A DNA stretch of 64,000 nucleotides from Tilletiopsis washingtonensis (taxonomy: Eukaryota > Basidiomycota > Exobasidiomycetes > Entylomatales): contig NW_020312014.1 of the NCBI RefSeq assembly GCF_003144115.1, positions 284,620-348,619 of the forward strand, given 5' to 3'. Numbering within the stretch: the first letter of the stretch is position 1; every line of letters begins with the position of its first letter. The position numbers and the translations under genes are program-made. The notes under the pieces are model-generated. The model saw only the letters and a program-made list of their open reading frames with translations, was not told the origin of the DNA and made no database searches. Shown here in pieces: positions 49,672 to 54,413 of the stretch.

Positions 49672-52600
49672 CTAGGCAAAGACCCAGTCTCCACGCTCCA
49701 GGCCCTCCACCAGCGCGCTCGTCTCCGCGTTCTTGAAGCGGCGCCGGTGCTGCTCGTGCGCCAGCATGGCACCCACGCCGGGGCCGCCGACCTTGGTCTG
49801 GTAGCACGCAAAGCCCTGCTTCTCGAGGTCGGCGACGAGACGCTGCAGCGTCTGCTCGTCCGTCTCGTCGGGGATCAGCGTCACAGCGCAGCCGCCTCCG
49901 CCGGCGCCCGTCAGCTTCGTGGCGAGTCCGGCGGCCTCCGTCGTGTGGCGCACTGCCTCGAGCGATGGGTGCGAGACGCCGAGGCCCACCAGCAGCGCGT
50001 GGTTGCGCACGATGAGCGCCTGCAGCGTCTGCAGCTGCTTGGCGCGGCTGATCGACGAGTCGCCCGCGAGGACGACGGCAGCCTCGTCCGCGATGTTCTG
50101 GATGTCCTGCAGCGCAGCGCCGACGCCCTGCGGGTCCGCCTGCAGCTTGGCGCCGACGCCGGCGACGAGGCTCTTCGTGTCGCGGCCGACGCGCGTGTCG
50201 GTGAGCAGGAAGCGCACTGCTGCGAAGCCGCGCATCGTGCGCATCTCGCTGCTGGCGCGGCCGGTCCGCTCGTGGGCGCGCGCGAAGGAGAGGGCGCCGC
50301 CGTGCACGGCGACGGCGTTGTCCACGCCGGATGGGTTGCCGTGGATGACCTTCTCGGCGAGGAAGGCGTAGGCGTTGATCTGCTCGGCGGCAGCGGCAGA
50401 GATGCGCTCGTCGAACTCGATGCGGCCCTTGGTGAAGAGCAGCGCAGCCGAGAGCGCCGAGGAGAGCGCAGCTGAAGAGCCGAGGCCAGCACCGATCGGC
50501 AGACCAGACCGCACGACGTAGGCCTGACCGGCGCTGGAGCGAGCGAAAGGGTCAGCAGGCGTCTCTCGCGCTTCTCGCAGAGGCACTCACCGGTCGTCGG
50601 CCTGAGCGATGCTCATGTACAGGTACAGGAACGCAACGCTGGCAGCATGGCTCCGCTCGCTCTCGTTGGCCACAGTGCCAACAGTCGCCTCGAGCGCCTT
50701 CAGCAGGCCTGCGTCGAGCGCGTCCGGCGCCTTGGCAGACCGTGCCGGCGCGGAGTCCCACGGCAGCCCCTCCAGCTCCCACTCGTGCTCGACCTTCAAG
50801 TCTGGCAGCGCGATGCTGATCTTCGCGTCTGCCCGCGGCTCGACGTGCGCGTAGCACCGCAGTGCCACGCTCGCGGCGATGGCGGTAACGCCGTGGACGA
50901 CCGCGTGCTCGCCGAAGAGGATGACCTTGCCCGGCGCAGAGACCACCATCTTGGTCGGCGCCGGCTCTCCGCCGCCCAGCTCGCCGTTCGTCGCCGCAGC
51001 CACTGCTGCTTCGGCAGGGTCGCCGCCACGCGTCTGCGATTTTGACGAGTCGACGCCGCCAATGTCCACAACGGCATCATCTGCAGCGGCCACAGCCGCA
51101 AGGCGCTCAAAGCGGCTTGCCGACTCGACTTGGTCCTCTGCCGTCTCGACGGCCTTCGGTGCTGGTGCCTCGATGGCGAGGCGCTGTCCGTGTGGCCGGA
51201 TGGCGCCAGCCTGCAGCAGAGCGCTCTCGAGGTCCTCGATCAGGTCCCGGCAGTCCTCGATGCCGACGCAGAGGCGGATCAGGTCCTCTGGCAGATTGCG
51301 CGCGGCGCGGACCTTGGGGTCGATGGAAGCGTGTCTGCCCGACGAGAGGCTGTCAGCTGGAGAAGCGGGATCTAGGATCTCTGCCTACGCACGACATGAG
51401 GCACGGCATGCTGATCAGCGAGTTGACGCAGCCAAAGCTGACACTGATGCCCCACAGGCGCGTGGCGCCAACGATGCGCTCGGAGAGGTTCTTGTCGCCC
51501 GTCTCAAAGCTGAGCACAGCGCCCGGGCCAGCAGCCTGCATGTCGTGGATCGCCTTGTTCGGGTGCGAGTCAAGGCCAGGGTAGTTGACCTTGAAGCCCA
51601 GCGAGTCGAGGTAGCGCGCCACGAGCCGTGCAGACGCCTGCTGCCGGTCCATGCGCACGGCGAGCGTCTTGATGCCGCGCAGCAGCAGGAACGAGTCCAT
51701 CGGCGTGAGCGCATTGCCGATCGAGTTGATCGTGAAGGCGATTTGCTGGATTTGGCTGTCAGCTGGGACACGCGAGAGGCATCGTCCCGCGTCAACTCAC
51801 CTTGCCCACGTCCTCTCGGTCGCACGCGATCACACCCGCCATCAGGTCGTGGTGGCCGGACAGGTACTTGGTGCCACTGTCGTACACCACATCTGCGCCC
51901 AGCTCCAGCGGGCGCATGAGGTACGGCGACATCATCGTGTTGTCGCTGGTGCCCCCTGTCAGCCGCCAGCTGGAGCGCCCTTACAAGCAACCACACTCAC
52001 ACGACCACCACGGCGTCAGGAGCGAAGTCCTTGGCTGCCCGCGCGCACCGCTGCAGGTCGCACACCTTCAGCAGCGGGTTTGTGGGCGTCTCGAGCAGCA
52101 GCATCTTTACGGGGCCGCACTTGCCCTCCTTGGCGTCCTGGGCACGCTGCTCCAGCAGTGCCTCGACCTTGGAGGCGTCAGTCGTGTCGACGTGGTCCGT
52201 CTCGATGCCGCCGTGCGAGGCGAGGTAGGTCAGCAGGCGGTTGGTGCCGCCGTAGAGGTCGTCACCGGCGATGATGCGCTCTCCGGGCTTGAGCATCCGC
52301 GTCACCACGTCGAGGCAGGCCATGCCCGACGAGACGGCAAAGGAGTAGCGGCACGACTGCAGCTGGCAGAGGTGGTGCTGCAGCATGGAGCGCGTCGGGT
52401 TGCCGGAGCGCGAGTAGTCAAACTCGGAGCCGGGCAGGCCCTTGAATGTGGCGCTATGATGGAGGTGTGAGCAGAGGCTCGATGTATTGCCAGAGCCGTG
52501 CTGTCGGCTGATCCCTCCCGCTCGGGCTCACCTCATGTACAGCGGCGTGCTGCTGGCGCCGTACTGGTCCTTGTGGTTGGGGTCGTCGACGGTGGCGCAC

Positions 52601-52839
52601 GTCGTGGCGAAGCGGTGGCCGTTCATGCTGCGGCGGTCCTGTGCGCTGATCATGCCGCTGGCGCGCGCCGCGAGGGCCCGCGAGCCGGCGACGTCGCCGC
52701 CCGTTGCGAGGAGCGCATCGCCGTCAATCGAGGCGGTCGAGTGGGAGAGGGAGAGGGAGGCGACAGACGAGGCGAGCGAGGAGCTGAGCGACGGCAGTGC
52801 GCCGCTGCCGGGCCCCGAGTCGGGAGCGCTCGATGCCAT
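49672..52839 (-). CDS. Cystathionine beta-lyase / mevalonate kinase fusion protein
   Basis: Predicted 954 residues from six exons: 52839-52532, 52453-52001, 51945-51801, 51745-51393, 51334-50591 and 50533-49672. Residues 1-461 form a PLP-dependent cystathionine beta-lyase (cystathionine to homocysteine): [84 protein letters not shown] (PLP Lys near 280) and [15 protein letters not shown]. Residues 549-954 are a full-length GHMP mevalonate kinase: [54 protein letters not shown] and [15 protein letters not shown]. Exon 5 encodes the end of the lyase, an 87-residue linker and the start of the kinase in one frame without a stop or a good splice donor. Two separate genes with overlapping transcripts, kinase starting at Met549, is the alternative. 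It is divergent from RRP17. Confidence 0.85.
50950..51210 (-). other. Linker between lyase and kinase in the fusion protein
   Basis: Residues 462-548 of the fusion, all within exon 5. The composition is Ala/Glu/Gly/Pro-rich (for example [20 protein letters not shown] and [12 protein letters not shown]), as in flexible inter-domain linkers. Triplet-by-triplet reading shows no TAA, TAG or TGA in frame, no in-frame ATG before Met549, and no GTGAGT/GTGCGT-type donor. Confidence 0.8.
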
Positions 52840-53129: not shown

Positions 53130-54413
53130 ATGGAGGCGCCGCTGCAGGCCTACACGCAGTCCGGCCAGGCCTCGCGCGCCGCAAAGGACGCAAAGGGCGG
53201 CTCGTCGCGCGACGCCCGCCGCGCACTGCGCGCCAAGCCAAAGACCAAGTCCAAGTCGGCCGCCTCGCTGCACGCCCAGCGCTTCCGCCGCAGCAAGGAT
53301 GCGCCCGTCATCGCCTTCGACGACGACAACCGCAGAGACTTCCTCACCGGCTTCCGCAAGCGCAAGAACGAGCGCATTGCAAAGACAAAGGCAAAGTACG
53401 CCGAGCGCGCAAAGGAGGAGCTGAAGGCTGCGCGCAAGGAGGTGAGTGCGGCCGGAGAGTGTGACCCAGCAGGAGGCAGCAGGATTGGGTTGCGAGCAGA
53501 GGCGCTGAGGCGGAGGAGCATGACGGTGCGTTCGGCTCTACCGTGCTGACCCTCTTCTCCCCTCAGACACGAGAGGCGCGCAAGCAAAAGGCTGCCGAAA
53601 ATGTGCGCATGGAGGAGGAGGCGTACGGGCCGATGCCCGCATTAGGCGCCTTGGGTGTGGAGGGTGCAGGGCTTGAGTCTGACGGCGAAGAAGACGACAG
53701 TGAGTGGCGCAGGCAGTGGCTCGCGGCGCAGCGTCTCACGTCTCTGCTCCTCAGTCATTGCTGCGCCTGCCTCATACGACACGCCGGAGCACTTCACAAG
53801 CGTGACAGTCTCATCTTTCGACCCATCCGATGCGCTCACGTTCGATGCGAGTGCTCCGACCCCCGCACCGGCACCTGTCAAGACCGTCAAGGCGAGCAGA
53901 GCTGAAGGCGAAGCATCTTCGTCATCAGCACCGCGGCGCATCCGCTCGCTCGCCGCTCTCGGCGGCACCGAGCTGCCTCCGTCTTCTGCTCGTGCGGCTA
54001 AGCGTGCCAAGAACGCAACGTCGAGCGCAGCAGCGAACAACAGCGGCGGACGGTCACGCGCGCCTCGGGTACCCGCCGGCCTGGAGCCGGAGCGCATCGT
54101 CGAGCTTCTCGAGCCGGCGTCCAAGCGGAAAGCCGAGCCGTTGATGCAGCCGGAGATCCTCGGTGGCGGCGGTGCAGAGGCAGCAGCAGCCGGCGCAACG
54201 TTCCACTACGAGACCAAGGCGGAGCGCGCGCAGGAGCGCACTAAGATCCGCGAGAAGCGGCAGAAGATGAAGGAGAAGCGCGTGGCGACGGAGCGCAACC
54301 GGCGCATGTCCGGCGGCAAGGAGAAGAAGAAGAAGGAGGGCAAGCGTGGCCTGGGCGGCAAGGGCAAGCCGAAGGGCAAGGGCGCGCAGGGCGGCAAGGG
54401 CAAGAAGGTCTAG
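53130..54413 (+). CDS. RRP17: RRP17/Nol12-family nucleolar protein (5' end rRNA processing)
   Basis: Predicted 367 residues from three exons: 53130-53441, 53567-53699 and 53755-54413. Rrp17/Nol12 is an RNA-binding factor in 60S maturation, linked in yeast to 5'-to-3' exonucleolytic trimming of 5.8S and 25S. The family block spans about residues 60-125: APVIAFDDDNRRDFLTGFRK, RKNERIAKTKAKYAERAKEE and across the intron TREARKQKAAENV. The middle is low-complexity. The C-terminus is a basic, strongly Lys/Gly-rich tail (KMKEKRVATERNRRM, then KGK repeats) suited to nucleolar RNA. Other family members are about 210-240 residues, so this one is extended after the domain. Confidence 0.87.

Follow-up and report, generated by a model that had tools for sequence, protein, structure and literature searches.

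A cystathionine beta-lyase and mevalonate kinase fusion gene in Tilletiopsis washingtonensis, an orthologue of basidiomycete metC-MVK

A 64,000-nt stretch of contig NW_020312014.1 from Tilletiopsis washingtonensis (hereafter the window) contains a gene whose spliced reading frame runs from a cystathionine beta-lyase (CBL) into a mevalonate kinase (MVK). The locus raises the question of whether these two enzymes are truly encoded as one protein and, if so, whether such a protein is new. The analysis described below establishes that the CBL-MVK fusion is real, that it was correctly read and that it was already known, the gene in the window being an ordinary orthologue.

Gene structure and the two enzyme halves

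A sequence-only reading of the window had taken a single open frame to specify a complete CBL followed by a complete MVK. The spliced frame (Table 1) bears this out, as its translation passes the cut-offs of both NCBIfam equivalog models: 521.5 bits for TIGR01329 (cystathionine beta-lyase; cut-off 487.5) and 205.3 bits for TIGR00549 (mevalonate kinase; cut-off 163.05). In Pfam searches the Cys_Met_Meta_PP domain (PF01053, 400.3 bits) covers residues 85-459 and is preceded by a poorly conserved N-terminal extension (residues 1-84), while GHMP_kinases_N and GHMP_kinases_C lie at residues 670-747 and 832-899, respectively. The end of the CBL part, the linker and the start of the MVK part are all held within exon 5, so that the join falls inside one exon, as had been claimed. 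The linker as delimited in that reading (residues 462-548) indeed contains no in-frame stop, no match to the splice donor pattern GTRNG[TC] and no ATG; the very next codon, 549, is an in-frame ATG. Upstream of the gene, a divergent ORF on the + strand matches Nop25 (PF09805, 46.7 bits). Its ATG, at position 53130, is separated by approximately 290 bp from the fusion start codon, and the two genes may share a promoter region.

Table 1. Position of the fusion gene and of its parts in the window.
Feature	Position	Strand	Remarks
CBL-MVK fusion gene, coding part	49672..52839	-	6 exons, 954 aa plus stop; stop-free spliced translation
Six exons	52839-52532, 52453-52001, 51945-51801, 51745-51393, 51334-50591, 50533-49672	-	spliced frame
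Five introns	78, 55, 55, 58, 57 nt	-	all GT-AG
CBL part, residues 1-465	51199..52839	-	exons 1-4 and start of exon 5; PF01053 at 85-459
Linker, residues 466-548	50950..51198	-	83 codons, within exon 5; open frame, no GTRNG[TC] donor
Arg497 of linker motif (FERL here)	51103..51105	-	Arg in 117/121 rows
Linker motif TRGGD, residues 521-525	51019..51033	-	TRGG in 31/121 rows
MVK part, residues 549-954	49672..50949	-	rest of exon 5, exon 6, stop; TIGR00549 passed
Met549, in-frame ATG at exact MVK start	50947..50949	-	contexts ACCAAGATGG / GCCGACCAAGATGGTG

Active-site-type positions were probed in a 121-row alignment comprising the window protein and 120 relatives. Five positions of the CBL half (Lys280, Tyr170, Asp255, Arg118 and Tyr116) and six of the MVK half (Lys556, Glu562, Ser688, Glu728, Asp739 and Gly879) are identical in every one of the relatives. 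These positions have catalytic roles, Lys280 being the PLP lysine. The identity of the 11 residues throughout the alignment counts for a bifunctional metC-MVK. At two further MVK positions, Lys788 is matched by Lys in 119 of the 120 relatives and Thr787 by Thr in 107. By sequence, the solved structure nearest to the CBL part is that of Arabidopsis CBL (1ibj); those nearest to the MVK part are human 2r3v and human/rat-type 1kvk.

Linkers homologous to that of the window are present in all 120 aligned relatives. They measure 55-149 residues by the alignment boundaries used and are mostly unconserved. Arg497 is the sole strongly conserved residue; a loose pattern around it recurs in 111 of the 121 linkers, where shuffling gives 41.7 on average. 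The rows bearing the TRGG motif are the window protein and records P0001-P0030. In the predicted structure of the Ceraceosorus homologue (P0001), both domains are confident and yield Foldseek matches to mammalian MVK and Arabidopsis CBL; the relative placement of the domains is unreliable in this model (pTM 0.55) and was left out of use. A short strand appears at residues 495-497, the site of the conserved arginine, and residues 503-544 fall below pLDDT 50; the linker is probably disordered for the most part.

Distribution and origin of the fusion

A protein search returned 732 matches. In all 120 listed relatives a single protein holds CBL followed by MVK, and the best matches are full-length fusions. 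Hence the domain pair whose presence in related proteomes the earlier reading had wanted checked was found in each of them, and the separate genes that it had named as evidence to the contrary were found in none. The listed relatives span Ustilaginomycotina, Pucciniomycotina, Agaricomycotina and Bartheletia, and include the genera Ustilago, Tilletia, Exobasidium, Malassezia, Microbotryum, Mixia and Sporobolomyces as well as Ganoderma, Agaricus, Auricularia, Calocera, Tulasnella, Kwoniella and Bartheletia. Full-length orthologues were found in Ceraceosorus guamensis (P0001; 70% identity over 93% of the query) and Exobasidium rhododendri (P0005; 69% over 92%). Unlike the window protein, these two have no Met at the start of the MVK part, and they are annotated just as cystathionine beta-lyase or hypothetical protein; two JGI proteins among the listed matches bear the name "cystathionine beta-lyase/mevalonate kinase". 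The 120 listed fusions range in size from 841 to 1249 aa, with those of Malassezia psittaci (P0032, 1249 aa) and M. yamatoensis (P0033, 1210 aa) well over the median.

Sixteen short or partial records were checked as possible unfused cases (P0241, P0242, P0243, P0245, P0247, P0248, P0249, P0252, P0254, P0255, P0259, P0303, P0128, P0139, P0141 and P0153; P0244, P0250 and P0251 were left out). In fifteen of them CBL leads on to SAPGK, the motif with which MVK starts; the remaining one, P0303 from Austropuccinia, resumes later in MVK. Among 18 unnamed MVK rows, six start in the linker, one in CBL and eight within MVK; the other three (P0126, P0136 and P0180) have a lead unlike the linker. The metagenomic record P0136 (MVK) has the same value for the length of its longest contig, 27861, as the metagenomic record P0258, a CBL that ends just past a short tail of its own and is nearest to the Jaminaea fusion. 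This pair may represent a real secondary split in a Jaminaea-like fungus, or else a gene-model split or error. An environmental ENA protein of 280 aa (P0121) matches 68% of the MVK query at 99% identity, so that the same species as T. washingtonensis, or a very close one, occurs in ENA data.

Yeast Str3 is a peroxisomal protein. Peroxisomal targeting as a logic shared by the two enzymes was considered and rejected, since a PTS1-like C-terminus was found in none of the 120 fusions and in none of 97 rows of a CBL search (P0264-P0360).

In the genome of T. washingtonensis itself, represented by one 18.7 Mb assembly, the fusion gene, in two exons, is the sole match when the MVK part serves as query at E values up to 10, and nowhere else in the assembly is the TIGR00549 cut-off passed. 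The other PF00288 loci are a homoserine kinase (193.4 bits), a diphosphomevalonate decarboxylase (241.5 bits) and a third gene that we take, from its motif, to be galactokinase-like. No locus passes the TIGR01329 cut-off when the assembly is searched exon by exon, the fusion gene included. Among the other CBL-family loci, as judged from single exons, C17:414-416k fits O-acetylhomoserine sulfhydrylase best and C21 cystathionine gamma-synthase; the locus on C19 gives weak matches only.

An MVK tree was built from 36 rows, including 18 basidiomycete fusion domains with that of the window among them. All 18 fall on one side of a single branch (95/93; 96% of 200 bootstrap trees), and the window's domain pairs with that of Exobasidium (97/90). 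The group adjoins the ascomycete MVKs and one eukprot row, P0230, whose long branch disturbs the placement of basidiomycetes and ascomycetes as sisters. Judging from the sequences, the window gene is orthologous to the other basidiomycete fusions, and the tree agrees, within the sampled rows, with a single fusion in the basidiomycete ancestor followed by vertical descent. Stand-alone MVKs of Mucoromycota and Ascomycota and stand-alone CBLs of Ascomycota belong to the same enzyme families but are encoded by separate genes and have no linker.

The earlier reading knew of no described protein of this kind; on this point it was mistaken, as the fusion has been in print since 2012. According to Liu et al. 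2012 (PMC3342255), who named it metC-MVK, it occurs in 12 basidiomycetes, whose genomes have no other MVK homologue, and originated in the basidiomycete ancestor. The same source describes a 16-residue MVK insertion in 7 of the 12 species. Like the window protein, metC-MVK of Ganoderma lucidum and other basidiomycetes has an N-terminal CBL (K01760) and a C-terminal MVK (K00869), as given there; its average length is about 886 aa, compared with 954 aa here. The linker of the window protein is longer, as it is in most listed Ustilaginomycotina rows. A second paper from 2012 (PMC3468542) describes basidiomycete STR3 orthologues with approximately 450 extra C-terminal residues resembling MVK, and reports that no stand-alone MVK was found in basidiomycetes. 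It places the fusion MVK equally distant (30-40%) from ascomycete, animal and plant MVKs, whereas the closest named stand-alone MVKs among our listed matches are from Mucoromycota, at 43-47% identity. The fusion is reported again in PMC4129116 and in PMC3720577, the latter on a transcript-based mycelial unigene from Pleurocybella. A literature search of open-licence papers found no biochemical test of both activities.

Weighing the readings of the locus

Very probably, then, the window gene is a standard metC-MVK: two independent, tethered enzymes that derive from a single ancestral basidiomycete fusion and have since been inherited vertically. The N-terminal half would be a PLP-dependent CBL, converting cystathionine to homocysteine, pyruvate and ammonia, and the C-terminal half a GHMP-fold MVK, phosphorylating mevalonate to 5-phosphomevalonate. 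The largely disordered linker would tether two enzymes that work independently, with no substrate handed from one site to the other, and the fusion would set 1:1 production of CBL and MVK from one promoter. We infer that both halves are active, that the domains act independently, that T. washingtonensis makes them as one chain and that the fusion is ancestral, having arisen once in the ancestor of Basidiomycota.

A competing account would have two adjacent genes that only look joined, whether through an error in the sequence, an intron that was overlooked or a wrong gene model. Some properties of the linker lend themselves to it: coding bias is weaker there than in the domains (third-position GC, 0.69 versus 0.90), frame 1 is open as well, and 1493 of 5000 random first-order sequences of the same length and composition (about 30%) are likewise open. 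Because of this last figure, the open linker is weak evidence when taken alone, and the reality of the fusion rests on its conservation in relatives. There, every listed relative is fused, motifs shared with homologues (FERL and TRGGD) lie on either side of the linker middle, and the Pleurocybella unigene of PMC3720577 is transcript-based. Since the fusion is kept in independent genomes, a gene-model artefact is in practice ruled out, and we give the whole account virtually no chance. Less extreme, yet still very unlikely, is that one gene gives rise to two products, by cleavage of the linker, from a shorter transcript or by internal initiation at Met549 to yield a separate MVK. This codon sits exactly at the MVK start in a good context (A at -3, G at +4), and the linker, being below pLDDT 50 at 503-544 in the model of P0001, would be exposed. 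Translation of MVK from Met549 of a shorter transcript could in principle occur in T. washingtonensis. On the spliced mRNA, however, Met549 is preceded by 22 ATGs, 17 of them in frame, which places it out of reach of scanning ribosomes, and a non-systematic look for a protease site identified none. The aligned residue in the 120 relatives is W in 51, L in 45, V in 12, I in 9, F in 2 and M in just 1. A separate start at this position is accordingly rejected as a feature of the family, and is not what sustains MVK family-wide.

A further possibility, unlikely as well though less so than the two just discussed, is that the metC-MVK halves are functionally coupled, a metabolite or the state of one domain regulating the other, or sterol-responsive transcription raising, along with MVK, the homocysteine and SAM needed to methylate sterols. 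That the whole phylum has kept the fusion, and that the linker arginine is conserved, are consistent with such a link between sulphur and sterol metabolism. Apart from that residue, however, the linker is poorly conserved, and a second route to homocysteine would be open through an O-acetylhomoserine sulfhydrylase-like gene (function by family) elsewhere in the genome. Moreover, the CBL and MVK reactions are not known to have a metabolite in common. Transcriptional control finds some encouragement in Ganoderma lingzhi, where SREBP targets a mevalonate kinase gene, g3941, and overexpressing SREBP upregulates that gene (PMC9810662); from PMC3342255, g3941 is presumably the fusion gene. Against this, the words cystathionine, methionine and sulfur are absent from PMC9810662.

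Significance of the fusion

Two independently working, tethered enzymes thus remain the preferred reading of metC-MVK. On the practical side, most of the fusion proteins are named in databases by their CBL half alone. In a study of U. maydis (PMC7396576), MVK was the only enzyme of the pathway not predicted in KEGG, a gap that the fusion probably explains. The question behind the fusion is why an essential isoprenoid kinase stays joined to a methionine-pathway enzyme phylum-wide. One answer, to which we attach little weight, is that the fusion has served as a regulatory device since the origin of Basidiomycota, such that the output of CBL follows MVK as the latter responds to sterols or to feedback from isoprenoids, or the reverse. 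If this were true, the linker or forced co-expression would tie the supply of homocysteine and SAM to sterol synthesis.
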